NCBI GenBank assembly: GCA_964030475.1
Contig: CAXIPT010000001.1
Location: 12,940,810-13,004,809 of the forward strand
Length of the DNA: 64,000 nt
Direction: 5' to 3'
Origin: Tethya wilhelma
Taxonomy: Eukaryota; Porifera; Demospongiae; Tethyida; Tethyidae
In this document: one piece after another, positions 12,083 to 43,049 of the stretch
How the letters are laid out: each line of letters begins with the position of its first letter
How positions within the stretch are numbered: position 1 is the first letter of the stretch
The notes under the pieces: generated by a model
The model's input: only the letters and a program-made list of their open reading frames with translations
What the model was told of the DNA's origin: nothing
Databases searched by the model: none
Translations under genes and position numbers: made by a program

Positions 12083-12137
12083 ATGAAGTCACTGATTTGG
12101 TTTGCATCTCTTCTTGGTCTTCTGGTTACTGTGAAAG
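12083..12137 (+). CDS. Orphan signal-peptide exon of the receptor family (P0)
   Basis: The exon starts with ATG and encodes MKSLIWFASLLGLLVTVK, ending in phase 1 at a GGTTAG donor. It is almost the same as the first exons of receptors P1, P2 and P4. No receptor ectodomain exon follows before P1's own first exon at 14030. It is either the relic of a deleted receptor or an alternative first exon for P1; the splice phase would permit the latter. Confidence 0.65.
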
Positions 12138-12324
12138 GTTAGATATCAAAGAATTTAGATAGTCAACTAAGTTCAGCATAGCTAGACTAGGAATTAGCAT
12201 AAAAACTGTTTGACTATTGAGTACTTTGGTATTGTTTTCAGCTGGGCACTAATCATCAATCACATGGACTTTGTGGTGGTAACTTATAATGCTAACTAGT
12301 GTTAAATGCTGCATGTATCCATGC

Positions 12325-12327
<3 letters not shown>

Positions 12328-12388
<61 letters not shown>

Positions 12389-12389
12389 T
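12328..12389. repeat. (ATA)n microsatellite
   Basis: About twenty ATA/AAT trinucleotides with one AAC interruption near the end. Confidence 0.95.
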
Positions 12390-12715
12390 AATGTCTTGCT
12401 ACATGCAACTGCAAGTGCTGTAATGGTGATTATGATAGAGTAGCAGTCTATAGCCTCCTAGGGTCACAGTGCAATATCAAACTACATGTACAAACACTGA
12501 CAATTATGACACAAAGGGTCTTGTTGTTAGAACGCTGACTCTTGTTTGTTTCTAGGACACTGACAGTCTTGTTTCTAGGACACAAGGACTCTTGTTTTTA
12601 GGGGTTTTGTAATGTTTTGCCTACAGTCATTTCACCTACGTATCAATTCGCCTACACTACCAGAAGTGACACAATAACGTAATGTAGGTGGTGCACATAG
12701 TTACTGATAGACCTC

Positions 12716-12905
12716 TCTCTGGGTGCTCTACGGACCAAACATCATGTCAAATTTTTAAAGTAGTACTTCTTTTCATGAGAATGATTTGCTCGTGAGATGT
12801 CATCAGTGTCTTCTGAAAGGAGTCCATGTGAACAACCAACTATGTAGGTTTCCATTCCTGTACTCTTCACACAGAGAGCTACCTGCACAGTACATAAACA
12901 TCCCC
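12716..12905 (-). pseudogene. Second decayed KIF19 fragment (exons 3 and 2)
   Basis: The minus strand resembles KIF19 exon 3 (parts coding DDISRAN and REKK) joined to part of exon 2 (ALRV region), with deletions relative to 31443-31796. A PHF5A exon-3 scrap (GATCTGTGATGAGTGTAA) follows at about 12956-12973. A similar scrap is at about 11787 after the first KIF19 fragment, so the KIF19-PHF5A border itself was copied twice here. Confidence 0.8.
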
Positions 12906-13343
12906 CTCAAGACATCATTGATAAACATGACCACTGGTGTAGGTGTGTATACACTGATCTGTGATGAGTGTAAATATTAACTTGGTTTCCAATTTGGATA
13001 AGTGTGTTTACAAGTAATCTAACTATAAGTTTGTCAGGCCCGAGGTTGTGTAAATCACATAGAAACCGAACCGAATGATGTAACTGACTTGTACCATGGA
13101 CCTACTAAATTAGTTATTCACAAAATGGAGGGAGTGGCCTAATAACTAGCTTCTATGTAGACTCCGGGGGTGTTGACAATCATATGCCCAGGGGGAAAAT
13201 GCTTTCTCATACTGTTGTTCTGAATGGACCAAACATAGGAGGCCACTCCCTCTATTTTGTGAACAGCTGATTTGGTTGGTCCACAGTACAAGTAAGTTTA
13301 ATTTGGGCGGGTTAAAACCTGGGTTAAGTAGCTAGTGTGAATG

Positions 13344-13800
13344 GGGGTTATGGCTCTTATCAAGGAAGATGTACCATATATATGTGGGGGACCTGGTGTC
13401 TCAAATGCTTACTACTGTAAAGAATGTACCATTTGTGAGACAATTAGATAAATTAGGGGGTAATTTTGGTTACCATGTAAGTTACAACAACTACAGATAG
13501 GTGCATATCAAGTGAGCTTGAGACAGCTCTATAGATGGTGTGGAGCACAACACAGCAGCTTGAGTGAAGCCCTCCATCTGTGGGTGAGAACAACTCATTT
13601 ACACAGTGCCTGGAAATACTGTGGCCAGTATCTTTACTAGCTACTGATCACTTAGGATAATCAGTAACACACATAGCTTAATCAATTTCATTGATGAATA
13701 CCTATAACTTTCAGCGCCAAGATTGCTAACTTGGGAAGCTATGAAACACAAGCTCAGAAGTGATGGCTTTACAAGAATGACAGTTATAGCTTGGACAGCA
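13344..13800 (+). pseudogene. Decayed PHF5A exons 3 and 4
   Basis: About 13350-13440 matches PHF5A exon 3 (GGCTCTTATCAAGGAAGATG, GGGGGACCTGGTGTCTCA), with an insertion of ATAT in the CTGCGG-motif region. About 13713-13790 is a mutated exon 4 (CCAAGATTGCTAACTTGGGA). The frame is broken. It directly precedes receptor P1, as PHF5A material precedes P2, the decayed receptor and P4. Confidence 0.85.
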
Positions 13801-13980
13801 GTAAAATGCCATGTCCTCCCTCATTTTCAGGTGTCCTGATTTGGGATAATATTATGAACTAGAACGCAATTATAATAATAGTTAAAATTCTCACTAGTGG
13901 CTAATGGTATATATACAATGATAACACTTGAGTGTAGTGTGATGCAGTAGCTCCACAGCAAATGACAGGCATTTGATTAC

Positions 13981-13990
13981 ACAGGAAGTG
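13981..13990 (+). promoter_or_regulatory. ETS-like site upstream of receptor P1
   Basis: ACAGGAAGTG matches the ETS-family core (GGAA in a purine context). It lies 40 bases upstream of the P1 ATG and is followed by an AATAATAACCCTTT block. The same pair of elements precedes P2, the decayed receptor at 33.3 kb and P4. Confidence 0.45.
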
Positions 13991-14029
13991 GGTAATAATA
14001 ATAACCCTTTATGAACAAGACATGAAACT

Positions 14030-17028
14030 ATGGCATTACTGACTAGGTTTGTATCTCTTCTTAGTCTTCTGGTTGCTGTGAAAGGTTAGATTGCATGGGT
14101 GATTATGGTACTAATTTGGGCATAAAATAATTCTAAAAATATATTCAGTATAATAATATCATCAAATGGGCACAAGAATTAAGCTAGTCGGGTACAGCCA
14201 GACTAGAATTAAGCATACAAAATTGTAAGATTATTGAGTATTATTTTCAGCTTGATGCCAATGTACAATCACACACATTATGGCAATGATACTGTCTGAA
14301 CTGCTGTGTATACATGGCAACAATTAATGCTAGTTTTTAGTTGCATGCACAGACTCTGTTTTCATGTACAGCTCAAAGTTGTCTCCAAGCTGCTGGGAAT
14401 AATGGAGAGCTTCCTGAGTTTAGAAGACGGGATGACCGTGAAGTTAGAATAACTCACCGACACCAAGCCATTATTGCTAGCTACCACTTTCAGTGTTGTG
14501 GTAATGTCACTGAGTGGGGAGCTAGTGTAGAAAATAGTGGTAATGGAGACCAGAATCTATATGACATCAACTTCCAAGTGTGGAGACCATCATCAGCAGT
14601 GGAGACTGATGGATGCTACAGTATGGTGGGACAGAATGCATTTACATCAGTGACACTGATTGATAGGTTGATTAGGGAGACTCCAGCAATGAATGACCAG
14701 ATCTCATTTCAGCCTGGAGATGCAGTCGGGTTCTACGTTCAATCTAACAGAATTAATGATCCAGAAGGTAATGGAGTGGTGTTGGATCAAACATATAACA
14801 CTGAGGCTGTGTGGTATGGAAGTATTGATGATGGAATAGTTCGTAATCCTCCCTGTCCGTTGCCTGTTGGAACTCAGTCTAACAGATTCCTACGTACCTC
14901 CACCAATCAAGCTCCAATAATCTCTGTATCATACAGTAAGTGCAAGTCCACCCACATCCATGTATTTATTATTGATCTTTCTTCAATACCCATAGCAACA
15001 TTTGATTGTTCACTCAAGACCTCTTCAAAATCTGCTCACCCTACTCCTACATCCTCCAAGTCTCTGGTAACCACCACTTCTCTTACCCTCTCCCCCAGTC
15101 TCACACCAACTCCTATTATGATTGGAGGGGGACTGCCTACAACAACAGTCCAACCTGATCAGTCACCCATGACAACTCATTCAACTACCACCAGTGGTGA
15201 CCTAACAACCTCTGAGCCCCCTCCTAACCAGCCTACCTCTGTTATCACTGGTCTCATCATTGGAGGTGTTGTGGCAGCAATCAGTCCGATTCTGATTGCC
15301 ACTGTATTGGCCTTATTTGGATGCTTCATCAGAAAGAATCGCACTAAAATCCTTAGTGCTCACAATGGTGAGGGACTATGATATAGCTACTCAGCAATTA
15401 ATTCACCATTGATTTCTACTAAATAGATGGAGACTCAGCTTACACAAATGAAGGTGACATTGCATCAACTTCAGTAATGAAAATGAATGAAAATGAGGCA
15501 TATGCAAAATCCACTGGCATGGTTTGTACAACTACAGAAGGTAAGTATAGACATAGGAAGGTCATATCATAGAAAAAGCAAACAAGATGTCTAGAATAGA
15601 GTAAAGAATTTACCCTGTGCATGTTATGGACTTGGAATAAATGGTTACACTGTAAATTGTTCAACACATAGATAATACAGATTTACTTATATGTTACGTA
15701 GTCTGTCTTTGTCAAAGTGTAGCCTGGAGGATTTATTATTTAGAGATGTGGTGAGTTGATGGCTTATAAGGAAGTCAAATGTTTGCATGGTGCATATGAT
15801 ATTTATATCATATATGGAAGTGCTATATGCAATTTGGAATATTTGCATTCTTGCATGGGTGTTTGGTTGGGCATTACTTTGAAAATTTAACAATTTCTAT
15901 TTGTAATCTAGCTTTTTCATAGGAGGTAGCCACTTTCACTCAAGATGGACAGTTTCATTTCAATTTTCATTTGAGATTACTGATTTTTCATGGCTTGCCA
16001 TGCATGGGGATTATAACTTGAAATTGACAATTTCCATTCAAGATTGACTGTTTGTCTACTCAGGATAGACAGGTTATACTCAAGCTGGACAGCTTCATTT
16101 TTTTTGAGAATGTTAGTTTATATTGATTTCCAGATAGGAACCGAAATTATTATGCAAAGGAAACTACAAATACAAAAAGCTGACCCATAAACAGAGTCTA
16201 GTAACAGTATCAGTTGTACAATAGCCATGCAGTCTACAACAACTCCAGGAAAGGGGAGAAATTGCCATGAATAATTGTTCTTTCATGGTCACAAATATGC
16301 ATATGTGTGTTTTCCATGTGATTAATTACAGTAGTAAACAAATTGTGTGCATACTTGTTAATAGGGTTTCCCAGAACCCCCCAAGTAGAATGGTGTAGGA
16401 ACTAAAAAAGCCTTTTGACACATTCAAGGTTACTGAGTATAGATCAATGACATTTTGGGGTCAGGATATACACTGTAAATGTGAGGGGAGGGGAAAGAGC
16501 AACCTCAAACAAATTTTATCCCTGAATAAGAATTAATTTTGATATCTTGAATTTGAAGCATCTTAGATAAAAATGATGAAAACAGCAGGTAGTGGGCCAG
16601 GTTTATTGCTCTAGAAAACAGCTCATAAAAGTGTATTATATTATATTACATCACAAGATCCGTGCCATGTGTACACCTATACCATACTGGGAATTTTAAG
16701 AGTTCAGGATAACTTGAGGCTATTTATTTTGCAGTTCTGACTCTGTTAAGTTTTACCATATGAATGTTTATCACTATAATTAGAGTAGTTTATTTCATAG
16801 ATAATGTCAATAATTATCTTATTAATTTGTAATTGTTCTGACAAAGATGCAGAGTATGAGATGGTAGACGACATTGAAATGCCTCAAGCACTGGAGACAA
16901 CAAGTCAGGACTACAATTATGTCAATGAAGACCTCATCATAGTGACTCATCCTAATGAGGCCTATGGTAAATCATCAACTGGAAGCAATCAGATAAATGA
17001 CAATGAGGCTTATGGACATGTACTATAA
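14030..17028 (+). CDS. Receptor P1: single-pass receptor with tyrosine-motif tail
   Basis: Five exons (14030-14084, 14372-14935, 14996-15367, 15427-15540, 16847-17028) give 428 residues in one frame. Residues 1-18 are a signal peptide. Residues 19-206 form a Cys-containing ectodomain with HRHQAIIASYHFQCCGNV, FQVWRPS, GCYSMVGQNAF, ISFQPGDAVGFYV and EAVWYGS. I know no named domain for it. Residues 207-288 are a Ser/Thr/Pro-rich stalk, and about 290-318 is a membrane helix followed by RKNR. The tail carries YTNE, ENEAY, YEMV, YNYV/YVNE, PNEAY and DNEAYGHV. These are NxxY (PTB-type), YxN (Grb2-SH2-type) and YxxV motifs, so signalling through phosphotyrosine is likely but inferred. Intron 2 is 60 bases and stop-free, so its retention would be in frame. 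Confidence 0.9.
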
Positions 17029-17329: not shown

Positions 17330-19320
17330 ATAATTAAGAGTCTTGTTGTTAGAACACTGGCTCCTGTTTCTAGGACACATGGACTCTTGTTTGTAGGACA
17401 CATGGACTCTTGTTTCTAGGACACATGGACTCTTGTTTGTAGGACACAAGAGTTCATGTGTCCTAGAAACGAGAGTCAATATAAAAAAAAGTCTTTTTTT
17501 TTACATTGACTCTCGTTTCTAGGACACATGAACTCTTATTGTTAGCTAGGACACTGACTGTTGTTTTCAGGACACATGGACTTGTATTAAGATACTGACT
17601 CTTCTTTCTAGGACACTGACCCTTGTTTGTCGGACCATAGATAATATAACAGCCCTGTTATATCATCTATGGAGAGACACATTGTTAGAACACTGACTCT
17701 TGTTTCTAGAACACATGGACCCATGTTAGGACACATGGACTCGTGTTTGGACACTGATTCTTCTTGTTGTTAGGACACTGACTCCTGTTTCTAGACACAT
17801 GGACTTTTGTTGCTGAGGACACTGAGTCTTGTTGTTAGGACACTGAGTCTTGTTTCTAGGACACATGGACTTTTGTTTGTAGGACACATGGACTCTTGTT
17901 GTTAGGACACTGAGTCTTGTTTCTAGGACACATAGACTTTTGTTTGTAGGACACATGGACTCTTGTTGTTAGGACACTGAGTCTTGTTTCTAGGACACAT
18001 GGACTTTTGTTTGTAGGACACATGGACTTTTGTTGTTAGGACACTGAGTATTGTTTCTAGGACTTGTTTGTAGGACACATGGACTCTTGTTGTTAGGACA
18101 CTGAGTCTTGTTTCTAGGACACATGGACTTTTGTTTGTAGGACACATGGACTCTTGTTGTTAGGACACTGAGTCTTGTTTCTAGGATACATAGACTTTTG
18201 TTTGTAGGACACATGGACTCTTGTTGTTAGGACACTGAGTCTTGTTTCTAGGACACATGCATGGACTCTTTTTCTACATTGACTCTTGTTTTTAGGAGAC
18301 TGACTCTTGTTTCTAGGACACATGGACTCTTTTCTATACTGACTCTTGTTTGTAGGACACATGGACTCTTGTTGTTAGGACACTGAGTCTTGTTTCTAGG
18401 ACACGTAGACTCTAATTGTTAGGACACTGACTCTTGTTTCTAGGACACCTAGACTCTAATTGTTAGGACACTGACTCTTGTTTTTAGGACACATGGACTC
18501 TTTTTTTCTACACTGACTCTTGTTTCTAGGACACCTAGACTCTAATTGTTAGGACACTGACTCTTGTTTCTAGGACACCTAGACTCTAATTGTTAGGACA
18601 CTGACTCTTGTTTTTAGGACACATGGACTCTTTTTTTCTACACTGACTCTTGTTTGTAGGACACATGGACTCTTGTTGTTAGGACACTGAGTCTTGTTTC
18701 TAGGATACATAGACTTTTGGTTTGTAGGACACATGGACTATTGTTGTTAGGACACTGAGTCTTGTTTCTAGGACACATGGACTTTGTTTGTAGGACACAT
18801 GGACTCTTGTTGTTAGGACACTGAGTCTTGTTTCTAGGACACATAGACTTTTGGTTTGTAGGACACATGGACTATTGTTGTTAGGACACTGACTCTTGTT
18901 TCTAGGACACATGGACTTTAAATTTGTTTGTAGGGCACATGGACTCTTGTTGTTAGGACACTGACTCTTTTTTCTAGGACACATGCATGGACTCTTTTTT
19001 CTACATTGACTCTTGTTTTTAGGACACATGGACTCTTGTTGTTAGGACACTGAGTCTTGTTTCTAGGACACATAGACTTTTGTTTGTAGGACACATGGAC
19101 TCTTGTTGTTAGGACACTGAGTCTTGTTTCTAGGACACATAGACTTTTGTTTGTAGGACACATGGATTCTTGTTGTTAGGACACTGACTCTTGTTTCTAG
19201 ACCACATGCATGGACTCTTTTTTCTACATTAACCCTTGTTTTTAGGACACATGGACTCTTGGTTCCATGACACTAACTGACTCTTATTTCTAGGACACAC
19301 TTGGAGTCTTGCTGATTGCA
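17330..19320. repeat. Minisatellite, family 2 (2 kb)
   Basis: Units alternate ACTCTTGTTTCTAGGACACA, TGGACTTTTGTTTGTAGGAC and TGTTGTTAGGACACTGAGTC, with a higher-order period of about 60-70 bases. Long open frames on the minus strand (repeating [17 protein letters not shown]) are products of the repeat. A near-perfect palindrome sits inside it at 17634-17672 (CCATAGATAATATAACAG and its complement). The array separates units 1 and 2 of the duplicated region. Confidence 0.93.
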
Positions 19321-20300: not shown

Positions 20301-20379
20301 CCCTTTCCCGAACTACTTGAATCTATTTAAGCACACCAACAACACCTTTAGCAAACAGCATTCTCACCCATCTGAAGAT

Positions 20380-21345
20380 AGCTGATATTTGTTTGCAGTT
20401 CCTCTATGATGCAATGGTACTGTGTGATGTGGTACTTCACTTCAGTCACATTCTGGCGGGTCTGCAGAAAATAGAACGTTAAACAGACAAGATCGTAATA
20501 GTTCCTTTGGGAGAATAGTACTCCTACCCCAATATGTACATGTGTATGGTGTAGGGTTCATGTTGATTGTTTTGGAGGAGACCACAGGATAAAACAAAAG
20601 GAAGGCACACCACAGTTTTTCTGTAGTACTCATTAAAGTGGTTCCTTATTGGTATTAAAGGTGCACTTCCTATTAAACCCAAAAAACATACATATTTGGT
20701 GGATACCTGGGTCTACATCCCTTCTAGACATGATAAACATGCATGTACAATATGCATGTCTTGACATGCATACATGACTGACGTACCTGCATGTGTGCAT
20801 GGCTCGGCCTTTTTGCCAATTACCTGATACTTGCCTAAGTAGGCATTGGGAGGGTTTGTTTAGGCTTGGGATTGTTCGTAAAGATTAGACCTGTCTGAAT
20901 TTTCATGATCACCACTAAAGGCAGGTTCACACTGATATGTGCCGCAGGCTGTGATAAATTGCATAATAGTATTTTCTATTGGTGATGTAAATGCAAGGCA
21001 AATGTCGACACAGACTGTTGAGATGGTGGCCTCATGGCTGATTTACTAGTCCATGCATGCCCACCAGATGTTTTCCATCTAGTTTGAAAAAATCAAATAA
21101 TTTTCTAAATATCCAACTGATTTCAAAATTTCAACCACCATTGGAAAGCGCTTGTTCTCCCCGTTCTTTTGGCTGCTTTTTCAGCTTACCAGTCAAAAGT
21201 TAGCTATTTTCCCCCAGGCCATATAAATGTATTGCGTGAATCTCATTACTTCACTTCTGGCGGCATTCTCAAACCAGATGGACTTTAATAGTTCCATCAG
21301 GTGCATGGCATATAGTCTGAAATATTAGTTAGTTTTGTTCAAACA
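20380..21345 (-). pseudogene. Decayed KIF19 fragments (exon 8 and exon 1 / 5' region)
   Basis: About 20370-20640 matches KIF19 exon 8 and its flanking intron at 29118-29395 (GTTCCTCTATGATGCAATGG, TTCCTTTGGGAGAATAGTA). About 21018-21050 resembles exon 1 (CCTCATGGCTGATTTAC), and about 21285-21345 the 5' flank. KIF19 is otherwise deleted here. About 20650-21000 between them shows nothing recognisable. Confidence 0.8.
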
Positions 21346-22039: not shown

Positions 22040-23153
22040 ATGGAGTTGCTGATTTGGTTTGCATCTCTTTTTGGTCTTATAATCTCTGTGAGAGGTTAGC
22101 ACAGAATGAATCATGATCGGCTATGCAGTGTGATCCTGCATGACTACATTTATTTATTACAGCTCAGCAAAGTTGCCTCCAAGCTGCTGGTAATAATGGT
22201 GACCTTCCTGAGTTTATAAGTGGTGGTGATCATATAGTTAAAATAACTCACAGACACCAAGCTATTATTGCTAGCTACCAGTTTCAATGTTGTGGTAATG
22301 TCACTGAGTGGGGAGCTAGTGTAGAGACAAGTGGTCGTATCGATGATAAAGGTGGATATGATATCAACTACCAAGTGTGGAGGCCATCACCAGCAGTGGA
22401 GATTGATGGATGCTACAGTATGGTTGGACAGAATGCGTTTACATCAGTAACGCTGTTCAATGGGTTGATCAGAGAGACTCCAGCAACGAATGAGCAGATT
22501 TCATTTCAGCCTGGAGATGTGGTTGGGTTCTTTGTTCAATCTAACAGAGATAGAGATCCAGAGCAACGTGGAGTGGTTTTGGATCAAACATATAATACTG
22601 AGACTGTGTGGTATGGAAGTGTTGATGGAGGAGTAGCCGACAATCCTTCCTGTCCATTCCCTGTGGGAAGTCAGTCTAATAGACTCCTACGTACCTCCAC
22701 CGATCAAGCTCCAATAATCTCAGTATCATACAGTAAGTGTCCATCCCTCATCCATTAACATTACAATAATTACTCTTTCTCTCAATATTCACAGCAACAT
22801 TTGATTATTCTCTCATGACCTCACCTGCTCACCCTACTCCTACATCCTCTAAGTCTGTGGTGACCACCTCTTCTCCTACTCTCTCCCCTAGCCCCACACC
22901 AATCTCTATCATCATAGGAGATGGGCAGCCTCCAACAACAGTCCAACCTGATCAGTCACCCGTGGCAACTTTACCAACAACCAGTGGTGACCTAACAACC
23001 TCTGAGTCTCCTCCTAACCAACCTGCCTCTGTTAGTACTGTTCTTATCATTGGAGGTGTTGTGGCAGCAATCAGTCTGATTCTGATTGCCGCTGTTTTGG
23101 CCTTGATTGGTCACTTCCTCTATAAACGTCGTAAAACAAGTACTACAAATTAA
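22040..23153 (+). CDS. Receptor P2: truncated family member lacking its tail
   Basis: Exons 22040-22094, 22163-22732 and 22795-23153 give 327 residues. The signal peptide is MELLIWFASLFGLIISVR. The ectodomain keeps the family hallmarks (HRHQAIIASYQFQCCGNV, YQVWRPS, GCYSMVGQNAF, ISFQPGDVVGFFV, ETVWYGS). A Thr/Pro stalk and membrane helix follow, ending in YKRRKTSTTN and a TAA at 23151-23153. In P1 and P4 this exon is spliced onward to tail exons. Here the stop precedes the place where the donor lies in P1, and the local sequence differs by a short insertion. The predicted product would sit in the membrane without tyrosine motifs. A frameshift in the assembly is the alternative. Confidence 0.85.
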
Positions 23154-23293
23154 ACTTAGTGCTCACAATCATGGTGATTGCATGGAATGTGTTAATCAAC
23201 CTGAATTCTTTAATGTTACTTCGTATAGTTAGACCACTACATAAAATATAGCATTCCGTGAATCATTTTGCTATTATTTCTATCAAAATATAG

Positions 23294-24356
23294 GTGAGGA
23301 CTTAGTTTCAACAAGTAAAGAAGATATTGCATCGATTTCAATAACGAAAATGAATGAAAATAAGGCATATATAAAATCCACTAGCAGGATTTGTACAGCC
23401 ATCAAAGGTAAGTGTATCATACATTATGTAGTAGACCGACTGTCACAATACAAAATATTTATAGGCTTACAAAACTCAGCAAAAAAGAGGTAATTTTACT
23501 AACTTGCCTAGTTGGCCTTATAGACAGCCTTCCAACTGAATACAACAAGCAAACTCTTAGAAACTTTACAGAGCAGTCAAGAGAGTTCTTGGTGGGAAGC
23601 CATGCACTGACATCCTAACTAACTGGAAATCGTGTTCAGATATAAAATTGTACTCACCAAGTACTGTACTCTCTTGAGTGCTTTGTAAAGTTACTGAATG
23701 TCTTTGGATTGATAGGCGTTGTCTCCAAGCAAAGTGTTTAGAGAAGCATAAAAGCCTGAAATTTCAGCAACTGAAACAAAAAAAATCACTTTGCAAGATC
23801 ATACTGTGAAAACCGCAAAACTTTCCTGCTGTACGGTAATGTACCACCAATTTTGTCACTAGAGCCTTCTTTCTTGAGATTTGAGCGGACAGAGAGACAA
23901 AACGACTGCTGTAATATAATATCTTGAATTTAGAAACAAACAGGCCAGCATACTTTCAAGCCTCAGAACTTGGGGCCTAAAACCACTGCTAAAGTACCAA
24001 CTATAAACAAGAGTACATAATAAGCATATACTGTTGCTATAAAGTATAGAAAAAATACTTGCATAAGCACAAAATGTAGCAAAATTTTAGTGCAAAACAG
24101 CTATATATAGTGCTCATGACACAGTTCTTACAACATCAGTAACTATTCTCTACATTGTTACAACAAAGATGCAGAGTATGAGATGGTAGACAGCCTCAGA
24201 ATACCTCAAGCACTGGAGACAACAAGTCAGGACTACAATTATGTCAATGAAGACCCCTTTGTAGTAACTCGTCCAAATGAGGCCTATGGTACATCAACTG
24301 AAAGCTTTCAGATGAGTGGCAATGAGGCGTATGGACACACTAGTATATACCACTAA
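23294..24356 (+). other. Tail exons 4 and 5 downstream of the P2 stop
   Basis: Exon 4 (23294-23407) and exon 5 (24169-24356) remain open and correctly bordered by AG and GT. They encode MNENKAY, then YEMV, YNYV, PNEAYGTS and GNEAYGH. That they have not obviously decayed suggests the P2 stop is recent, bypassed by alternative splicing, or an assembly error. AATAAA at about 24397 may serve as a polyadenylation signal. Confidence 0.7.
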
Positions 24357-26665: not shown

Positions 26666-29600
26666 CGGTATATTACAATAGGTTTTACCTTTTGCTAATG
26701 CTAACTCCTTTCTTCGTAATGGAACATGTCTCTTGACAGATGGCGCTAGAGGTAGCCTTCTCTTGTGAGGTTGAGTTGGAACCTTATGAGCCACAGGTAT
26801 GAAGGGATGTTGTCTTGAGCTACGAGTGGAGTGTACCACAAGTCCACTGCTGGTGGTTTTATGGAGAGGACTTCGTTCTGACTTGAATCCAGCCTTGTGT
26901 AGTGGTGTGGTGGTAGTAGAAGGTGAATCGGTTGGTTTCTTTGAGTGTGAGCTCACAGTCTTGTGACTGGGTGTGGAGTGGGTGGAGGAGGTGGCCTTCT
27001 TTCGGGAATGATGGTAAATCTTGTCCAGCTCCTCAAGAGTTATCACTTTTCGTCCTTCTCTGTGTTTTGAGGATCGTCGAGTGGCATCGGAAAGAACAGA
27101 TTTGGAAAATGGAAGTGTTCTGGTTCTCTTGTGAGATTGCTTTGAGACCGGCTTGGGAGAGAGGAGAGGCTGGGATTGGGTTTTGCCTGCAATGGATGCA
27201 ATGGAATCCCTCTTCCTCAGGTCTGGCTGATCAGATAGACTCTTGTTATCATCACTCTCACAATCAAACACAACTGTGTTCATGTTTCTGCGTACTTTTG
27301 CTCGTTGAGAGACAATGTATTTGTGTTTTGCTCTGGCAGAGCATCGTGATATGGAGATTCTGGGGCCAGTAAAAGATGGTACTTTGCTGAGTATCTTCTT
27401 TGGTGAAGGGAGGGCTCGATTTCCAGTGGTAGAATACAACTGAGGATCATTCCTCCTTAGCTTTGCTTTCTTAGCTGCTTCCACTATTAAACTGATGTCA
27501 GGTTGCTTGGGTAGGTTATCAGGGTTTGCGATTGGTTCTGGTGATTGTTGCAAGTCAGTGGTTGAACCGTCAGGCTTAGCAGCTACTAGAGAGGGTTGTT
27601 TAGAGGTGTCGATATGTGGAAGAAAGAGATCAGAGTCATTTTGAACCAGAGGCAGGGGTGATAGCTGATGACTAGTCTCAAGAGAAGAGAGGCTGGGAAG
27701 ACGAATATCACTTATTGCAAGAGGACTCAAGTCTTTGGTGGTTTCTTCGGTAGGTGTGTCATCACGAACAAAGAGGTTGGATTTGGATGCTGTAGATCAA
27801 AATACACACAACATGAGCTTGTATATCTGATAGAAATCATAGTGAAATGCATAAGATACCTGTCATGGAAGTATACAGTCTTGCTGACAGCCTTGCAATA
27901 CTTGGTAGCTACATGGACATGAAAAAAATAATATCAGGTAAATCAATTATTCCCACATACAACTAGATATTGTTGTATACCTTCACATGCAGTTCTCTGC
28001 CAAGAAGGGGAGACTTCTTATCAGCAGTCATTTGAAGTTGAAGAGACTTTTGCCTGTCACTTAACTCACGACACTGAGCACTCAGCTCCTCAGGCAATGG
28101 CACCAGCTGTTCTTCCATGAGCTCCCTCTGGAGGACAATGACTCCCAGGAGCTGTTTACTGTGCTTCAACAGAGTCTCTATCATGCTCTCCTGCTTGGCT
28201 ATTTGGATGCTCATGAGAGCTGCCGTGAGGTGGTGCTCTATATTGGAGGCCTCTAGCTCACAGGAGTGTTGAAGGAGCTCAATGAGGTCTTTTCTCAGGG
28301 GCAGCAGATCAGGGTAACCAGACAGCTTCTACATAAAGACACACATAGACAACCAGAGTAACTGAAATTCCAAACATGCCATAGGATTATGGTACACACT
28401 GTATTATTGTGTAAGGAAATGATCTTATGTACCTCATTGATCTCCAGTACTTTGCTCTTGCTCTCCACCACCTTCCTCTCCAGCCTCCTGTGTTGGGCCT
28501 CCATTCTCTGCTTGTCAGCTACCAGAGTGGACAGCTCCTCTCTGGACGATGATACACTGAACAGCTCTATTTGAGAGGCTGGAAGCTCAGCAGTGCCAGA
28601 GTCTGGACTGATTGACATGTGGACCACACCAGGCTTCTGTTCTACACCTAGTGAAACAGGTGGTTCTTCTTGGAGAGGGGCATTTAGATGTAGATGAGAT
28701 TCCATGGACACACCACAAGGAACTTCTTCACTCATTGCCTCGGAAGACTTAGGAAGAGTATCCTCAAGGACTGAGGTAGTTGGAGGGATGAGAGCTACAG
28801 AGCCTGAGACCTCGTGAGAAGACTTCTTTTGTTCCCATTCATTGATCCGTCCAAGGTGCTTCTGACACTCCATGGCATTTTGAAGTAACTTGTACTCCAA
28901 TGAGAGCAGCTCTTGCCTGAAATAGACGTCAAGGACTCATATAATGCATTATGTAGATGCTTAGCAATCGGTACAGAGTACACATGTATTGCAGGGAGCA
29001 TACCTAATCTCCTTCTCTTCTTGGATAAATTCTTTCAGCTGTTGACATAGTGAGTTGACCTCTGAATTCTCCCTCTTAGCTCTCCCCACACCTGACACCC
29101 GGCCATCCAACTGGGACTGAAGATAGCTGATCTTTGTTTGCAGTTCCTCTATGATGCAATGGTACTGTGTGATGTGGTACTTCACTTCAGTCACATTCTG
29201 GCGGGTCTGTTTACAGAAAACAGAACGTTAAACAGACAAGATTGTAATAGTTCCTTTGGGAGAATAGTACTCCTATCCCAATATGTACATGTGTATGGTG
29301 TCAGGGTTCATGTTGATTGTTTTGGAGGAGACCACAGGATAAATCAAAAGGAAGGCACACCACAGTTTTTCTGTACTACTTAACTTGGTTCCTTACTATA
29401 CTAAATTGGCATTACTAAAGGTACAATTCCTACTAAATCACTGACCCTATTCTTGATCTTCTTCCCTATCTCAGCGTAAGAGAGAGTGTTCCTGGACTCC
29501 TCAAAGGACTGGCAGGATGGACTGACATGAGCAATCATCACAGTCTTGCAGTTCCCCCCAAGAGCATCCCTGAGGAGTCGGGTGAGTTTGGAGTCTCTGT

Positions 29601-31105: not shown

Positions 31106-31900
31106 TGTGCGTGTGTGTGTATAGAGAGGGAATCAGTCATACTTCCAAGTAGGCCATGGTCACTCGATATATCATATCTTCCTTAGTGTCTTCTATCTTC
31201 TGAAAGAGGTCGTTCAAGGTCAAGGCCATGATACCTGGATCAGAGTCCGTACCCAACATGGTGTGTGTCTTGCCTGCACCTATAGTACACACAGAAGTAT
31301 GGATGAATGTTAATTGTAACTCTATTACAACTATTGTTTGGATAACATTGCAGGCTACTCTATTAGGAGTATGTGCAAACACGTGTGCCTCCTCTCCCCC
31401 ACACAGACACACACTTGAAACCATTGAACACAAAGCCTATACCTGTAGCTCCATAAGCAAACACAGTGCAGTTGTACCCTCCAATGATGCTATCAATGAT
31501 GTTCTTCTCAACCACAGCATACTGATACACCTCTCTCTGGGTGCTCTGAGGACCAAACGTCATGTCAAAGTAGTACTTCTTTTCACGAGAACGATTTGCT
31601 CGCAAGATGTCATCAGTATCTTCAAAGGGGTCCATGAGAACAACCAACTGTGTAGTAATAAATATGGTAATACCATGCCAGGTGGTGGCATTTGTTTTGC
31701 TTATTTTGAACTCACATTCTCATCCACTGTATGGGCAATTTGTCTGTTTCCATTCCTGTACTCTGCTTGGCTCATGGGACGCACACGGAGAGCTACCTGC
31801 AGACAGTGCACAAAAGTACCCCCTCAAGGCATGTTATATAAATGTGGCAATGATCACTACTTACTGTCAACGGCTCCAGCTGCTGGGGTGGCGGCTTCAT
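26648..31900 (-). CDS. KIF19: KIF19, kinesin-8-type motor of cilia
   Basis: KIF19 is a plus-end-directed, microtubule-depolymerising kinesin that limits cilium length in vertebrates. Twelve in-frame exons: 31865-31900, 31716-31796, 31443-31647, 31143-31279, 30750-30968, 30296-30403, 29446-29706, 29004-29206, 28433-28916, 27981-28328, 27860-27908, 26648-27789, giving 1090 residues (human 998). The motor shows VALRVRPMS, YGATGAGKTHTMLG (P-loop), NRQRTCEPTAANKTSSRSHA (switch I), VDLAGSERA (switch II) and GAHINRSLLALANCINALSS. A neck/coiled-coil and a basic Ser-rich tail follow. KIF19-specific features include MDPFEDTDDILRANRSREK. Exon 7 uses a weak GTCAGT donor. The start at 31898-31900 (MKPPPQQLEPLT) matches the family's short N-terminus. 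The last codons and stop appear to come from an inserted foldback element. Other copies in the window are fragments. Confidence 0.95.
31060..31120. repeat. (TG)n microsatellite in a KIF19 intron
   Basis: A run of TG dinucleotides about 55 bases long, upstream of exon 4 on the plus strand. Confidence 0.95.
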
Positions 31901-32216: not shown

Positions 32217-33059
32217 ATGGCCAAACATCATCCCGACTTGATTATGTGTAGAAAACAACCTGGAGTAGGTAAGGAACCTAAGTAGCTAGACAGTAATCGT
32301 GATATAGTGTACATTACATACATTTTTCTGACATACTTTTTTTCTACAGCAATAGGAAGACTATGTGAAAAATGTAAGTGATATATGGAGAGTAATGTCT
32401 ACATGTATCATGATCCAGTGTTTAAATGTGGTTCTAATATCTATAGGTGACGGCAAATGTGTAGTGTGTGATTCATATGTTCGTCCATGTACCCTGGTAC
32501 GGATCTGCGATGAGTGTAACTATGGCTCTTATCAAGGAAGATGTACCATATGTGGGGGACCTGGTGTCTCAGATGCTTACTACTGTAAAGAATGTACTAT
32601 CTGTGAGAAGGATGTAAGTTTGGCAACTTTGTGTAACATTAGAAAAAGGGAGTGATCCCTATTAAGATAATCACACCTCAATCTGTAGCTGTAGAAGCTT
32701 ATTCACATACGCTCCATTGTGTTGTGTAATAATAGCTTGGTAATGGAAGAACAATGTAAATGTTGACTCAGACTTTAAGTATTGTGTTCGATATTTTGTG
32801 TTGCTGCGTTTTGGTACGCAGGTAGTTTTTGTGATTGAACACGATGCAACATCTTTCGTTAACTAGCCTTTAGCTGTAGAATACGAAAGTACCCTAGAGG
32901 GGAAAATAGCTTGAACTTTCAATTGATGAATCTAAACCTCTGTGCATTATGATTTGCTTTTTGATACAGCGTGATGGGTGCCCAAAGATTGTCAACTTGG
33001 GAAGCTCTAAAACAGATTTATTCTATGAGAGGAAGAAGTATGGCTTCAAGAAACGATAG
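32217..33059 (+). CDS. PHF5A: PHF5A, SF3b spliceosome subunit
   Basis: PHF5A (SF3b14b) is a 110-residue zinc protein in the SF3b complex of U2 snRNP that helps recognise the intron branch site. Exons 32217-32268, 32350-32373, 32447-32613 and 32970-33059 give exactly 110 residues. It starts [20 protein letters not shown] and has the Cys pairs [27 protein letters not shown] and CKEC. It ends [11 protein letters not shown]. The gene looks complete. It is near-invariant in eukaryotes, which makes the fragments at 13.3, 21.6, 38.9, 43.05 and 44.1 kb easy to recognise. Confidence 0.97.
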
Positions 33060-33301: not shown

Positions 33302-33640
33302 GCTCAGCAGAGTTGCATCCAAGCTGCTAATGGAGACCTTCCTGGGTTTTTCAGTAGATGTTGTACGGAAGATGATGATGTTAGGATAACTCCAGGGGCG
33401 TAGGAAGCGGGGGGGCAAGGGAGGCTCGAGCCCCCCTTGTCACAAATCAGTGTGGGCTGAGCCCCCCTTGTAAATGTTACAAATATTTTGGTAAAGATCG
33501 TCTTAGCTCGAGTGCCAAATACAAATTTACAGCTAAGTTGCAAGAGTATAGTATCATGGTGGGACAGAATGCATTTACATCAGTGACTCTGACTAGTAGG
33601 TTGATCACCAGCAATGAATGAGCAGATCTGGGAAGAGCCA
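33302..33640 (+). pseudogene. Decayed receptor ectodomain exon (between PHF5A and P3)
   Basis: After a normal acceptor, about 33302-33345 and 33365-33393 match the start of receptor exon 2 (CTCAGCAGAGTTGCATCCAA). An insertion beginning CAGGGGCGTAGGAAGC at about 33394 and containing GAGCCCCCCTTGT twice interrupts it. The match resumes at about 33552-33630 (TGGTGGGACAGAATGCATTT). No signal exon, stalk or tail is found. The rest, to 34374, shows nothing recognisable apart from half of a foldback (ATAACAGGGCTATTATCTAT) at about 34343. Confidence 0.85.
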
Positions 33641-34374: not shown

Positions 34375-36441
34375 ATGGAGTTTCTGATAATATGGTATGC
34401 ATCTCTCCTTGGCCTTCTTATCACTGTGAAAGGTTAGCTTGCATGAATGCATGATATATAATTTATAATTTCATACAGTGCAAAATTATGTTGAGTTGAA
34501 TAATAATAATAACCTATGCAATTTATTACTATGCATAATCAACAGCATGGCGTGAAAGAGCTATCAACTTAATTCTGTTATTGATAAGAACTATATGTAT
34601 AAGCCTTAGCTACAAGTGATTTATTGTTTATTACAGCTCAGAGTTGCTTCCAAGCTGTTGGAAATAATGGAGATCTTCCTGAGTTTAGAAGACGCAGTGG
34701 CAGTGCTGATAATGTTAGAATATTTCACAGACACCAAGCTATTATTGCTAGCTACCGCTTTCAGTGTTGTGGCAACGTCACTGCATGGGGAGCTGAAGTC
34801 GAAGATGCTCATGACAACAGATACGACATCGCTTTCCAAGTTTGGAGACCATCTCCAAGAGTAGAGATTGATGGTTGCTACAGCATGATTGGACAAAATA
34901 CATTTACAAGAGTTAGCCTCGAGGACAGCTTGATAAGGGAGACCCCAGCAGTGAATGATCGGATCTCATTTCAACCTAATGATGTTGTGGGGTTCTACTT
35001 TTATTCCAATATCAATCCAGAAGAAGATGGGGTGGTTTTGGACAGAACCTATGACACTGAGGCTGTGTGGCATGGAATTATTGGTGATGAAGTAGCTAGT
35101 GATCCTTCATGTCCGATCCCTGTGGGAACTCAACCTGACAGACTATTACGTACTTCAACAAATCTAGCTCCAGTGATCTCTCTATCGTATAGTAAGTTTA
35201 TTTATCATTGAAGTTCATAATTTTTATGTGCAATCGATCAATGCATCTGTTATCAAACTATTTTTGTATACACTCTTGCACAGCATCTTTTGATTGTCCT
35301 CTCATGACTTCAACTGCTCAATATTCTCCTGCTTCCTCTGTGTCTGTGGTGGCTTCTCCTACCCTCTCCCCCAGTCCTACACCACCCCGTGCAATATCTC
35401 TTCTTCCACTCCAACCCACATCATCATCAATGACTGCAATTTCCCCTAGTATCACACAAACTCCTGAAATTATTGAAGATTCCCTCAGTCCCACACAAAC
35501 TCTTTCAATGATTGAAATGCCTCTAAATCCAACACAAGCTTCTACATTTATTGATGTGTCACCAATTCCTACTTTGAGTGTTACATCAATGGCTCGCCTG
35601 ATGATGAGAGGAAATGAACTTTCTATGCTGTCTACAACTTTGAGCTCCAGCACTCTCAGTGTTGATCAAACTATCTCAAACTCCCCTCCAATTGTGCCTG
35701 ACCAGCCTATCAGTATTGGTCTCATCATTGGTGTTGTCATGATACCTGTCAGCCTATTGACAATTCTTATTGTCATTATCATTGCTTTTGGATGTTTCGT
35801 GATTAAAGATTCAAGAAAAAGTGAGTAATTGAAGACTCAATTTTTTGCTTCTAGTACATGATATGAAAATTTATTATTTTACTATAAATATTAATATTAG
35901 CTGCATACACTGATAACTCAATCCATATGTACTGAACTCATGTGTACAATAACATTATATAGCTGATTTAATCATTACAGCCGATCATTATGAAAGAAAA
36001 CAAATAAAAAAAGAAGCCTATAAACATAGGGGCCATAGGGCATCTCCTGTGTCTCCTTGTATGACTTGTACAGGTGTGGAAGGTAAGTATGCCTTGTGCA
36101 GTCTTAGTATAGATGGTATACATTTGATAAAGAGATGATGTGGATGCCAGTCAGTAAATAATTTCTAGTTTCTCACTGTACAATATATATTGTATGCAAC
36201 ATTGTCTCTCTTAAATTTATTAATTATGTGCACACATTATAAAGGTAGGATGGAATATGATGAAGTGGATTGCTTCCAAATGCCTGATGTACTGGAGGCA
36301 CAGAGTCCCAAGTATGATAACACCTTGGTCACAACTCATTCAAATGAGGAGTATGTTAATGCTATGCCAATTGAAATGAAAATGAACAAAAATCAAGCAT
36401 ATGGACATAATTATGTCTCATGCCAAAGTGGACAAAAATAA
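34375..36441 (+). CDS. Receptor P3: divergent family member with long stalk
   Basis: Exons 34375-34432, 34637-35191, 35284-35820, 35981-36082 and 36245-36441 give 482 residues. The signal peptide is MEFLIIWYASLLGLLITVK. The ectodomain has HRHQAIIASYRFQCCGNV, FQVWRPS, GCYSMIGQNTF, ISFQPNDVVGFYF and EAVWHGI. The Ser/Thr/Pro stalk (about residues 205-345) is much longer than in the paralogues and has its own repeats (SPTQT, NPTQA, SPIPT). The membrane helix follows ISIGLIIGVVMIP. The tail is the most diverged: DHYERK, EAYKH, MEYDEV, KYDNT, SNEEYVNAM, KNQAYGHNYV. It keeps NxxY and YVN motifs. Its upstream region lacks the ETS-like block and instead carries half of a foldback element. Confidence 0.9.
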
Positions 36442-37435: not shown

Positions 37436-37600
37436 TATCATTTTTTGATCAACTTGGTGAAGATGATGATGTTAGAAGAACCAATCAGCACCAATTAAGC
37501 TATTATGGCTAGCTACCAGTTTTACCAGTTTTACTAGCTACCAGTTTTGGTGTTGTGGTAATGTCATGAATGAGGAGCTGAAGTGGCTCCAGATTGTGGA
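37436..37600 (+). pseudogene. Second decayed receptor ectodomain fragment
   Basis: Matches the start of receptor exon 2 (GAAGATGATGATGTTAGAAG, CACCAATTAAGCTATTATGG). TAGCTACCAGTTTTACCAG is duplicated internally and AATGTCATGAATGAGGAGCT is frame-broken. It lies upstream of a foldback element and far from any signal exon. Confidence 0.8.
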
Positions 37601-37659
37601 CCAGATTAGAATCTCTACAGTATCAACATAATTACAAGTATAGTAAAAATTTCATAAAA

Positions 37660-38063: not shown

Positions 38064-38087
38064 ACCACTTAATCCATTATTATGGTG

Positions 38088-38415
38088 GCCGAGAAGTGCA
38101 AACCCGACGTCGAATGCGCCGATGTATCGCCGACAGAGCGCCGATAGAGCGCCGACAATGCGCCGACGTATCGCCGACATTGCGCCGACGTATCGCCGAC
38201 AATGCGCCGATGTATCGCCCATAGAGCGCTGACCTATCGTCTAAAGTGCAAACACGATGTCGGGGTCATATGGCCCCCGACAATGCGCCGATAGAGCGCC
38301 GACAATGCATCGACGTATCGCCGACATTGCGCCGACGTATCGCCGATAAAACGCCGACGTGTCGCCGACGCACTGTGCCGACCCATTGCTGACGCATCGT
38401 CGACTAAGCGCCAGC
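38088..38415. repeat. GC-rich short-period satellite (CGCCGAC unit)
   Basis: About 330 bases built of 11-15-base units such as CGCCGACGTATCGCCGAC, ATAGAG and AATG variants. The base composition is strikingly unlike the AT-rich surroundings. It starts right after the N-terminated foldback element. Confidence 0.9.
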
Positions 38416-38438: not shown

Positions 38439-38520
38439 CCAGGCTCTCCTCCTCCTATACTATTAAGAGGGCGGAGAAAAGAAAGGGGGAGGGGAGAGGA
38501 GAAGGAGGAGGAGAGCCTGG
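38439..38520. repeat. Purine/pyrimidine inverted repeat
   Basis: CCAGGCTCTCCTCCTCCT at the left is the reverse complement of AGGAGGAGGAGAGCCTGG at the right, with a purine-rich loop (GAAAGGGGGAGGGGAG). It could form a hairpin. No gene is seen to 38890. Confidence 0.8.
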
Positions 38521-38891: not shown

Positions 38892-39122
38892 TTTCGTTAA
38901 CTAGCCTTTAGCTGTAGAATACGAAAGTACCCTAGAGGGGAAAATAGCTTGAACTTTCAATTGATGAATCTAAACCTCTGTGCATTATGATTTGCTTTTT
39001 GATACAGCGTGATGGGTGCCCAAAGATTGTCAACTTGGGAAGCTCTAAAACAGATTTATTCTATGAGAGGAAGAAGTATGGCTTCAAGAAACGATAGTTA
39101 TAATAGGACATCACTGTGAAAT
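38892..39122 (+). pseudogene. Perfect copy of PHF5A exon 4 with flanks
   Basis: These 231 bases are identical by eye to 32854-33084, covering the end of PHF5A intron 3, exon 4 with its stop, and 25 bases beyond. A single N at 38891 immediately precedes the copy. No other PHF5A exon is near. It is either a very recent duplication or an assembly join at an overlap. Confidence 0.9.
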
Positions 39123-39671
39123 ACCATGACCCGTGTTGATCACTAATGTTCTTAATAATGATTTATGCTATTACTTGAGTATATACAGTCGACTAATATG
39201 CAACTCGACTCATTCTGCTCTAGATCTGGCCAAGAGAGACTGACTTCATAAGACATGCATGCCGCACGATCTCCACGATGCCCCAAATCACTCCAAAATG
39301 CCAGTAGATGCTGCGCTCCATTCACATTGAGTCCTTCTTTTGACACCCTACTACTATATGCTTTACTTGGGACACTTTTTTATTAATAAGTCGAACAAAC
39401 CAAACTTCAAAGGTGAACCACTTAATCCATTAAAGATCAGAGTGCTGACCACTTCAAAATCCACTATGGGATATATCCGGTGCCGACATGCCAACAACGA
39501 ATAATTCATGGCCCAGAATGATGACGTTTTGGAGAAATATTAATTTTACCATAATATTACTAAGGTAATAAATTAATAGTCAGACACTGTTTTCGAGGTT
39601 TCTACGTGATTTAGACCCAATGAAATTTGAGGTTTGTATATATATATATAGTGGGTATATACAGTATGCAT

Positions 39672-39681
39672 GCAGGAAGTG
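39672..39681 (+). promoter_or_regulatory. ETS-like site upstream of receptor P4
   Basis: GCAGGAAGTG lies 77 bases upstream of the P4 ATG and is followed by TAATAAATAACCCTTCATTT, parallel to P1 and P2. Confidence 0.45.
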
Positions 39682-39757
39682 GTTAATAAATAACCCTTCA
39701 TTTCTTGCTTCCTTTTACCAAATCATACATGGGTATGAAGGTATATATTGGAAAACT

Positions 39758-41978
39758 ATGGAGTCACTGATTTGGTACGCATCTCTTCTTGCTCTTCTGG
39801 TTACTGTGAAAGGTTAGATTGCATGAGTGATAAATGATTAGTGATTGTTGCATGTAGTCTCGCTAGCCAGACTCTCCGGAGCTCCGCAAGGATGCACATA
39901 TACGTAGTGAGAATTGGCTAGTTGTCAAAATATCACTAAACTTGGCATAATATATATATATATATATATATAGCAGTTATTTTAATAATCAGCTGGGCAC
40001 CAAAAACTCAGTATATTAAAATAATTATGACACACAGACTTCCTGTGTATGGCAAGTACTTCACTGAGTTTAATTTCATACACCACACACTTTTTGTTTT
40101 CCTGTGCAGCTCAAATTTGTCTCCGAGCTGCTGTGACTAATGGTGACCTTCCTGTGTTTCGTAGACCATTTGACCATGATGAAAGAATAACTCACAGACA
40201 CCAAGCTATTATTGCTAGCTACCAGTTTCAGTGTTGTGGTAATGTCACTGAGTGGGGAGCTAGTGTAGAACAAGGTGGTGGTGGAGATAATCGTCTATAT
40301 GATATCAACTTCCAAGTGTGGAGGCCATCATCAACAGTGGAGACTGATGGATGCTACAGTATGGTGGGACAAAATGCATTTACATCAGTGACACTCGTTG
40401 ATAGGTTGATTAGAGAGACTCCAGCAATGAATGACCAGATCTCATTTCAGCCTGGAGATGTGGTTGGGTTCTTTATCCACTCCAATCATGATAACCCAGA
40501 AGGTCGTGGAGTGGTTTTGGATCAAACGTATGACACTGAGGCTGTGTGGTATGGAAGTCTTGGTGATAGTGTAGTTGGTCAACCTTCCTGTCCGTTCCCT
40601 GTTGGAACTCAGGCTAACAGATTCCTACGTACCTCCACAAATCAAGCTCCAATAATCTCAGTATCATATAGTAAGTGTACTCCCTACCACCATCATTACA
40701 AATAATTCAACACCCTCATGCAGCATCTTTTGATTGTCCTCTCACAACCTCCACTGTACAACCGACTATGGTGACCACCTCTTTTACCATTTCCCCTAGT
40801 CCTACACTGACCTCTGCAATAATTGAAATGTCCCCCAGCCCCACACCAACCCCTGCCCTTATTGGAGGTGGACAGCCTCCAAGAACAGTCCAACCTGATC
40901 AGTCACCCAATGGCATGACAACTCTCCCAACTACTACCAGTGGTGACCTAACAACCTCTGAGTCCCCTCCTATCCAACCTGCCTCTGTCAGTACTGTTCT
41001 TGTTATTGGAGGTGTCGTGGCAGGAATCAGTGTGCCTGTTTTTATTGTTGTTTTGGCCTTCATTGGATATTTCCTCAGAAAAGGTTGTAAAACTGGCACT
41101 AAAGGACCTAGTGCTCGGTATGGTGAGTGGTTGGTGTTACTCAATTGTTACTTGGAATATAGTTCACTATACATTGATTTAGCATTCAATCATCTTGCCA
41201 TTACTTTCTACTGAATAGAGGGAGACTTAACTTATACAAATGAAGCTTATATTACATCAACTTCAATTATGAACATGAGTGAAAACGAAGCATATGTAGA
41301 ATCCACTGGCATGGTTTGTACAGCTAATGAAGGTAAGACTTAGTAATAAAATTTGATATTATTATAAGGGTACACAATTATGTCCTGTGTGAGAAGATGA
41401 GGTCATGTAAGGATAATCTTAAAAGTTGCTTTGTGTATTGAAGAAGTAACATATGTATATGGGCTTAATTTATACTTCTCCCGGTTTATGAAATGACACC
41501 ACCAGTTGCAACTGATTACAAAAATTCTTTAAAAGGCTTGTATTCAACAAAAATTGATAAACGTACAACTATAAAATTGCGAGAGCCAGAACCAGATTAG
41601 CCTAAAGTACTTGTAAACAATACTATAATAGGATATCATATAATTATACCACGGTATTCTCTTATAAAATTAATTTGTGTGTTGATTGAGAAATACAATG
41701 TGAATACCAATGTGCTTTAATGTTATCATTTGGAGTTTCTTAACATGGTTTAATTTGGCAAATACTCAATAGATGAGATGGTAGATGGCATCAGAATGCC
41801 TCAAACACTGGAGACAGCAAGTCAGGACTACAATTACATCGATGAAGACCTCTTCGTAGTGACTCGTCCAAATGAGGCCTATAGTACATCAACTAGAAGC
41901 ATTCAGATGAATGACAATGAGGCCTATGGTACATCAACTAGTACTGTGAATACCATCAATGAGGTGACCCATAGTTAA
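39758..41978 (+). CDS. Receptor P4: single-pass receptor with four NEAY motifs
   Basis: Exons 39758-39812, 40110-40670, 40724-41122, 41219-41332 and 41773-41978 give 444 residues. The signal peptide is MESLIWYASLLALLVTVK. The ectodomain (about 19-205) has HRHQAIIASYQFQCCGNV, FQVWRPS, GCYSMVGQNAF, ISFQPGDVVGFFI and EAVWYGS. It is closest to P1. A Thr/Pro stalk and a helix follow SVSTVLVIGGVVAGI. The tail has YTNEAY, ENEAYVES, YNYIDE, PNEAYSTS and DNEAYGTS, so four NEAY motifs. Compared with P1 and P2 the last exon starts DEMVDG instead of DAEYEMVD, losing one tyrosine, and it ends differently (INEVTHS). AATAAA at about 42358 may be a polyadenylation signal. Confidence 0.92.
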
Positions 41979-43049
41979 TTTTTATATTGCTATTAACATT
42001 ATTCGACATAATATTGTGTTTTATTACGCGTGTTGCTTGTATGTTTGTTTGTTCACTTCATCGATAAATTATAATATTTTACTTATAGTGTTATTTTATT
42101 AATAATTTATAAGAGTAGCTTACACTGTATAGTCCATGGCACTGCACTGAAGTGCTTCACAACAGAAATATGTTAAAAATATTCAGTTGTTTCCATATCT
42201 AGTTACATGTCTTTGTTTGGATAATTTTTCTTCATCTCAATTGTCAGAATCTGCATGTTGCTGGATGGCTTTCGATAATAAATCACATGCAGTGTAACAA
42301 TTTATATGCTATGTATGATCCAGTATACATGTCTGTTTTATGTAGAGATACTGCATGTATAATAAATATATGAATGGATTTTTGTAAGTCACATGACCTC
42401 AATTTACAATTTAAAGCATGCATGGACTGAAGAATTGAATGATTGGATTTCATTCAACCTAATGATGTTGACTTGACATGTTGTGGGCTTCTACTTTTAT
42501 TCTAGTATCAATCCAGAAGAAGAGGGACACAGCCTTGAGTTCTAATTGTTAAGTTAGTGGTAGGAGTAGTGCCTATTCATTGTACTCAGTTAGTGTACAG
42601 GCTATATTCAGCACCATGTCATGCAGTGATGTCACTGCATTGGTCTAAAGTTAAACTGCATGCACGTGCACGGAGACAACTAAGAGTTGTGATGTACCAT
42701 ATGATTCATTTGGATGAGTTGCAGCAAAGCTGCTGCCAGTGATGTATAGAGTCGTACTCACAGCTGTCCTACTCATCAACTGAACCATGATAAGCATCTT
42801 TTATGGTTTTGTTACTTTTGTATAATTATAGCTAGTAACTTCAAGTCAACCTCCATGTACTCACACTCACAGTGCACTAATTAAGTGCAGTTCCAAATAA
42901 AAATTGTTGATGCAGGTAACTAAGCAAAGTGTAAATAATTTCATGCTCACTAAATAAATCATCAATACATCAAAGACACATAGCTAATTAATAGTATAGT
43001 AATGAGATCAGTCTTATTCCACAATTATGAATGGTAAATTGATCTATAG
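41979..43049. other. Spacer with a decayed receptor scrap
   Basis: About 42430-42530 matches receptor exon 2, nearest to P3 (TTTCATTCAACCTAATGATG, ATCAATCCAGAAGAAG), with a 15-base insertion and no frame. Nothing else is recognised. Confidence 0.6.

Follow-up and report, generated by a model that had tools for sequence, protein, structure and literature searches.

Tandem receptor genes of the sponge Tethya wilhelma as probable kinase-less relatives of receptor tyrosine kinases

Four tandem receptor genes (P1-P4) were identified in a stretch of 64,000 nt from the genome of the demosponge Tethya wilhelma (C1:12940810-13004809, the whole of which is referred to here as the window). These genes very probably encode kinase-less paralogues of receptor tyrosine kinases (RTKs) from an expanded demosponge group. 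Their architecture is evident at the sequence level, as are an ectodomain and stalk in common with the RTKs, the same phase-1 joints, a conserved tail and the lack of any kinase that could be found. An RTK-like ectodomain with a tyrosine-bearing tail in place of an enzyme suggests partner or docking receptors. We lean, with some reservation, towards the full reading that the P proteins are kinase-less RTK paralogues acting as docking co-receptors, phosphorylated in trans by RTKs. A sequence-only reading of the window missed that this ectodomain is not confined to the cluster and also stands at the head of many RTKs of this genome.

All P1-P4 gene models are predictions read from DNA alone. The four genes lie on the plus strand and have five exons each, with GT donors, AG acceptors and all internal joints in phase 1. 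The first exon encodes the signal, the second the whole ectodomain of about 185 residues (555-570 bases), the third a Ser/Thr/Pro stalk and a single helix, and the last two a tyrosine-rich tail.

14030..17028, plus strand: P1 receptor gene, 428 aa by splice sites and phases; exons 14030-14084, 14372-14935, 14996-15367, 15427-15540 and 16847-17028
14372..14935, plus strand: P1 ectodomain exon, modelled as a jelly roll (mean pLDDT 89.6, pTM 0.87)
22040..24356, plus strand: P2 receptor gene; exons 22040-22094, 22163-22732, 22795-23130 (alternative donor), 23294-23407 and 24169-24356; otherwise a TAA just behind the helix
34375..36441, plus strand: P3 receptor gene, 482 aa by splice sites and phases; exons 34375-34432, 34637-35191, 35284-35820, 35981-36082 and 36245-36441
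39758..41978, plus strand: P4 receptor gene, 444 aa by splice sites and phases; exons 39758-39812, 40110-40670, 40724-41122, 41219-41332 and 41773-41978

Splice sites, phases and frames bear out the common five-exon layout described in the sequence-only reading, subject in P2 to the choice of donor. The frames of P1, P3 and P4 are full-length. At the donor position used in these three genes, exon 3 of P2 meets a TAA directly behind the helix, and P2 is in frame (420 aa) only through a weaker alternative donor (23130, followed by GTAAAA) 5′ of the sister position. Hydropathy gave a single signal and a single strong helix for each protein, the stalks are 46-59% Ser/Thr/Pro and each tail has 7-9 tyrosines, in agreement with the earlier description of single-pass receptors with tyrosine-rich tails. 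Ectodomain identity to P1 was 78% in P2, 69% in P3 and 80% in P4.

The ectodomain was found at no fewer than 40 places in the searched genome (124.6 Mb) with P1 as the query, and four other family members as queries added more; all counts of ectodomain, kinase and tail places are lower bounds. Three kinase genes were read exon by exon. In L039 (C9:2.377 Mb), the ectodomain, stalk and helix are followed, in order and on one strand, by NPNY, a tail containing IYEDP, YAYVE and EYEEP, a juxtamembrane exon with YWAPA and then the kinase exons, which by eye carry VAVK, HRDLAARN, DFG, APE and DVWS in that order. Its first joints, like the internal joints of P1-P4, are in phase 1, and its tail-to-juxtamembrane joints in phase 0. 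L040 (C2:12.73 Mb), also read by eye, has the ectodomain, a helix with NPTY, YWAPS, an N-lobe and HRDLAARN and DVWS exons. The third gene (L011+L041, C1:13175192-13170000, minus strand) lies about 190 kb beyond P4, and its ectodomain is 79% identical to that of P1. Its stalk exon resembles by eye that of P4 (SFDC..VTSTVQP, TVQPDQSP, TTSGD.TTSE.PP) and is followed by NPNY, a tyrosine tail, a YWAPA exon, a kinase N-lobe and HRDLAARN, with Pfam kinase matches at E 4.4e-18 and 7.2e-14. By eye, L012 and L011 form a near-identical inverted pair, in which L012 has the helix and tail exons of L011, followed by unread bases.

Among the matches listed for the whole genome, merging left 68 places with an ectodomain and 75 with a kinase N-lobe. 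The lists comprise the places from P1, one further ectodomain query and the kinase search, to which the three remaining queries contributed new or longer places only. Places were merged at 200 bases, whereby three adjacent ectodomain exons at C8:3.912 Mb counted as one, and the ectodomain list takes in stop-containing fragments and places with E values as weak as 0.01. For 29 of the 68 ectodomain places, a kinase N-lobe exon followed on the same strand no more than 8 kb downstream, in 23 cases with no intervening ectodomain (20 at 1.37-3.22 kb and 3 at 4.6-5.4 kb). Fifteen kinase N-lobe exons were found on C1 between 13.02 and 13.20 Mb, the first of them 16 kb past the window. Behind P1-P4 themselves, no kinase exon was detected at E<=1e-5, and a repeated search at E<=1 gave a single chance-level match (E 0.65) in a minisatellite behind P1. 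Within the P1-P4 polypeptides no tyrosine-kinase domain was found; the kinase exon at 63299-63790 is part of a different gene.

In a tree of 29 ectodomains, P4 paired with the L011 kinase gene (C1:13.17 Mb) with support of 95/92; the deeper part of this tree is weakened by long branches and by 13 open forks out of 26. From the three kinase genes and the tree, the ectodomain, stalk and helix of P1-P4 are homologous to those of RTKs of the same genome. P1-P4 thus have the ectodomain, stalk, helix and phase-1 joints in common with these kinase genes, and differ from metazoan RTKs in that no kinase domain was found and in having a tail of their own.

This short tail stands in place of the juxtamembrane and kinase exons and comprises two exons, in which four tyrosines are almost fixed (DYxY..NxAY..NEAY). 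Among 11 aligned tails, tyrosines 22 and 55 were invariant and tyrosines 24 and 39 nearly so. NxxY occurred 31 times in 12 tails as against 5.8 times in shuffles (sd 2.2; 0/500 as high), an excess which, since the tails are homologous, does not represent 12 independent events. YxN occurred 10 times as against 6.0 in shuffles (38/500 as high). The NEAY core is the best kept part of the surroundings of NxxY; position -8 is usually Ile, Val or Met and position -6 usually Met, Thr or Val, and some conservation is also seen at +3 and +4 (Ser, Thr). PTB domains read the residues before the tyrosine and SH2 domains those after it. The kept residues at -8 and -6 would therefore suit a PTB-type reader, and with +3 and +4 also partly kept this may be taken as a lead only.

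The last exon of P1 matched 12 places, including four in the window, one at C7:4.90 Mb and others on C1 and C2 (C1:13.084 only at E 0.08). Outside the window there are eight tail loci, including one at C1:13.152 Mb that was spotted by eye, outside this search. At C7:4.90 Mb the tail is preceded by an ectodomain of the P type and a stalk. A kinase-less receptor with such a tail directly follows a kinase gene at C1:9.845 Mb and at C1:13.152 Mb, and at C1:13.092 Mb a tail exon precedes one; at C1:13.084, C1:13.092 and C2:7.22 Mb the tail exon alone was seen and not the exons before it. Two tail relatives were present in the protein collection. One of them (P0074) and the ectodomain relative P0016 are encoded on contigs of equal length (1,187,029 bases). 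The two contigs are therefore probably one, and the pairing of ectodomain and tail is probably older than this species. In the kinase-less receptor L013 (C7:4900583-4904143), the tail unit TGGxIQMSENEAY has been amplified several times, so that docking-type sites multiply through repeat growth.

On the docking co-receptor reading, the ectodomain would bind a surface or secreted partner, and the P proteins would pair with RTKs that carry it too. Phosphorylation of the P tail in trans, by the RTK or by a Src-type kinase, would follow, and the phosphorylated NxxY and YxN sites would hold PTB and SH2 adaptors. A comparable arrangement is known from ErbB3-type kinase-dead RTK partners, in which a tail of docking tyrosines is phosphorylated by the partner. 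The proposed working mode of the P proteins would be the same by analogy; they differ in having no kinase domain at all, and the pairing is here a conjecture.

Besides the homology of the tails, several observations weigh against this reading. P2 possibly ends behind the helix. A kinase exon also lay within 8 kb upstream on the same strand at 17 of the 68 ectodomain places, and on the opposite strand at 9 of 68. Uniform scatter of both families predicts 0.16 downstream pairs, a figure that is too low because both families are clustered, so that the exon-by-exon readings carry the argument. On the ectodomain tree, the 6 rows with a kinase require 6 changes of the kinase label, as many as when labels are shuffled; kinase presence has thus changed often, and the tree does not settle loss versus gain. 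In L011+L041, the activation-segment exons (DFG to DVWS) are absent between HRD and the last exon (L041 1700-2110, minus strand), across a CA repeat. This is either a deletion or an assembly fault, and the closest kinase relative may consequently be dead.

The P proteins could instead be decoys or brakes, which dampen the RTKs by binding their ligand or by forming dimers with them, the tail serving mainly for endocytosis. The presence of the same ectodomain without a kinase and the possible end of P2 just behind the helix would agree with such a role, and NxxY motifs can act in internalisation too, not only in docking. However, the tail tyrosines and exon frames are kept across many copies and in other assemblies, beyond what a decoy would need, and we consider this explanation unlikely, if credible.

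The sequence-only reading had found no nameable domain in the ectodomain, and profile searches support it: no Pfam match was found in any of the four P1-P4 frames at E<=10, no sequence match to the ectodomain was found in the PDB, and none of 57 ectodomain family members had a significant Pfam match (Ig included). The structure predicted for the P1 ectodomain was confident, nearly all beta and a jelly roll. No clear structural twin of this model was present among the PDB likenesses listed, which were weak and consisted of lectin-like and carbohydrate-binding jelly rolls; the absence of Ig from that list does not exclude an Ig fold. No description of this ectodomain was found in the available portions of PMC8662651, PMC8061703, PMC12018476, PMC11000336, PMC8242945 and PMC5793068. 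Ka/Ks of nine P-type ectodomains (Nei-Gojobori, own script) ranged from 0.26 to 0.52 in 35 of 36 pairs and was 0.88 in the remaining pair. These values indicate constraint, with no overall diversifying selection seen. In the ectodomain alignment, length-variable stretches alternate with conserved ones.

Decayed copies accompany the intact genes, as listed below.

12083..12139, plus strand: orphan signal exon, tblastn identity 61-83% to the signal exons of P2, P3 and P4, E down to 7e-4; repeat family D13
33302..33640, plus strand: decayed ectodomain exon with a stop, tblastn pieces of 50-88% identity, E down to 2e-4
37530..37604, plus strand: short decayed ectodomain piece (weak), SYQFWCCGNV, tblastn E 0.27-1.0
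42426..42539, plus strand: decayed P3-like ectodomain exon with a stop, tblastn E 6e-6 to P3
42690..42746, minus strand: tail-exon remnant (weak), ATHPNESYGTS, tblastn E 0.08-0.49

In line with the sequence-only reading, tblastn thus recovered an orphan signal exon and three pieces of decayed ectodomain (weakly at 37530-37604), and the proximity of intact and decayed copies supports the tandem birth and death of copies that this reading had proposed. It had also proposed immune or allorecognition receptors, in which case the ectodomain would bind microbes or conspecific cells and the tail would signal alone through cytoplasmic kinases. Tandem copies alongside decayed ones, the length-variable stretches amid conserved ones and the weak likeness of the ectodomain model to lectin-like and carbohydrate-binding jelly rolls would fit this proposal, and P1-P4 may possibly have an immune or self/non-self role. 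However, the 12 tails contained no immunoreceptor tyrosine-based activation motif (ITAM), and inhibition-type motifs (ITIM-like) occurred at chance level (3 as against 3.7 in shuffles; none in P1-P4); by tail motif, P1-P4 do not belong with the ITAM/ITIM immunoreceptors. Given also the lack of overall diversifying selection and that kinship with RTKs is the plainer account, the proposal in this form seems to us rather doubtful.

Alternatively, the cluster could be a graveyard of RTK copies deprived of their kinase and without a lasting function. The decayed exons in the window and the nearby kinase gene without an activation segment would agree with this. However, three of the four frames are intact, ectodomain Ka/Ks is low in all but one of the pairs and the tail is shared by eight other loci, and we regard mere relics as improbable.

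Kinase-less relatives of RTKs have a precedent in the sponge Geodia cydonium, in which the RTK ectodomain is shared by kinase-less adhesion molecules (GCSAM). In both sponges, membrane proteins without a kinase bear the ectodomain of an RTK. The accessible parts of PMC12018476 and PMC11000336 cite the ectodomain of the Geodia RTK as Ig-like. In contrast, the ectodomain described here was modelled as a jelly roll, had no Ig match in Pfam and belongs to large tandem families. According to the available text of PMC8242945, sponge receptors that have tyrosine-kinase, Ig and fibronectin domains count among the putative cytokine receptors. P1-P4 also recall a further system in being clustered, single-pass and equipped with tyrosine tails. 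Paired ITAM/ITIM immunoreceptors are likewise clustered single-pass receptors with tyrosine tails, from which the P proteins differ in having no ITAM, ITIM-like motifs at chance level and no Ig match in Pfam.

Through P1-P4, a so far unnamed receptor family in an early animal is tied to tyrosine-kinase signalling, and a defined ectodomain family is now available to be sought in other sponges. It becomes testable what these sponge RTKs recognise and whether kinase-less partners arose early in animals through loss or exchange of kinase exons. On a more speculative and, as a whole, unlikely scheme, sponges would have a two-part recognition system of many RTKs and kinase-less partners with an interchangeable jelly-roll ectodomain. 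Mixed tandem clusters would permit combinatorial pairing, the number of NxxY sites, varied by repeat amplification, would set signal strength, and the system would read self, non-self or symbionts.

Other features were observed in the window. A kinesin gene on the minus strand and minisatellites lie between the receptor copies. Pieces of this minus-strand kinesin region are repeated near the receptor genes (11514-11584, 12736-12806 and 31546-31616; 20372-20464 and 29117-29209); one such pair is 99% identical, which indicates recent segmental copying. A minisatellite with 21-, 23- and 44-base units occupies 17338-19290, and an 11-base GCGCCGA-type repeat 38086-38388. A PHF5-like frame (32356-32652, plus strand, E 2.2e-20) has partial, pseudogene-like copies among the receptors (43042-43222 and 13380-13440, plus strand, 82-95% alike). 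An open frame at 43221-43688 that appeared death-domain-like by eye had no Pfam match at E<=0.01. Towards the right edge (53000-64000, plus strand), Calx-beta (56113-56415, E 1.2e-5, just below the cut-off) and Ig (61774-62199, E 4.8e-5, below the cut-off) matches precede a tyrosine-kinase exon (63299-63790, plus strand, E 1.6e-11, over the cut-off). These exons, which come from one or more other genes, possibly form a separate RTK with another ectodomain.

Elsewhere in the genome, the open frames around an ectodomain match (C2:12743938-12744447) and a kinase match (C9:2385649-2385867) measure 3489 and 3216 aa, an unusual length for these exon-rich genes. Silicatein and its Cys-to-Ser change mark siliceous demosponges, and silicatein-like genes make it most likely that this genome belongs to that group. 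At four C2 loci a cathepsin-L-like frame contains CGASYAF, Ser taking the position of the catalytic Cys, and the reversed pattern, used as a control, was found 0 times. For a 40-residue piece of one of these loci, the closest PDB entry was silicatein alpha (6zq3, E 2.3e-16), followed by a cathepsin-silicatein chimera (1.8e-10) and cathepsins.

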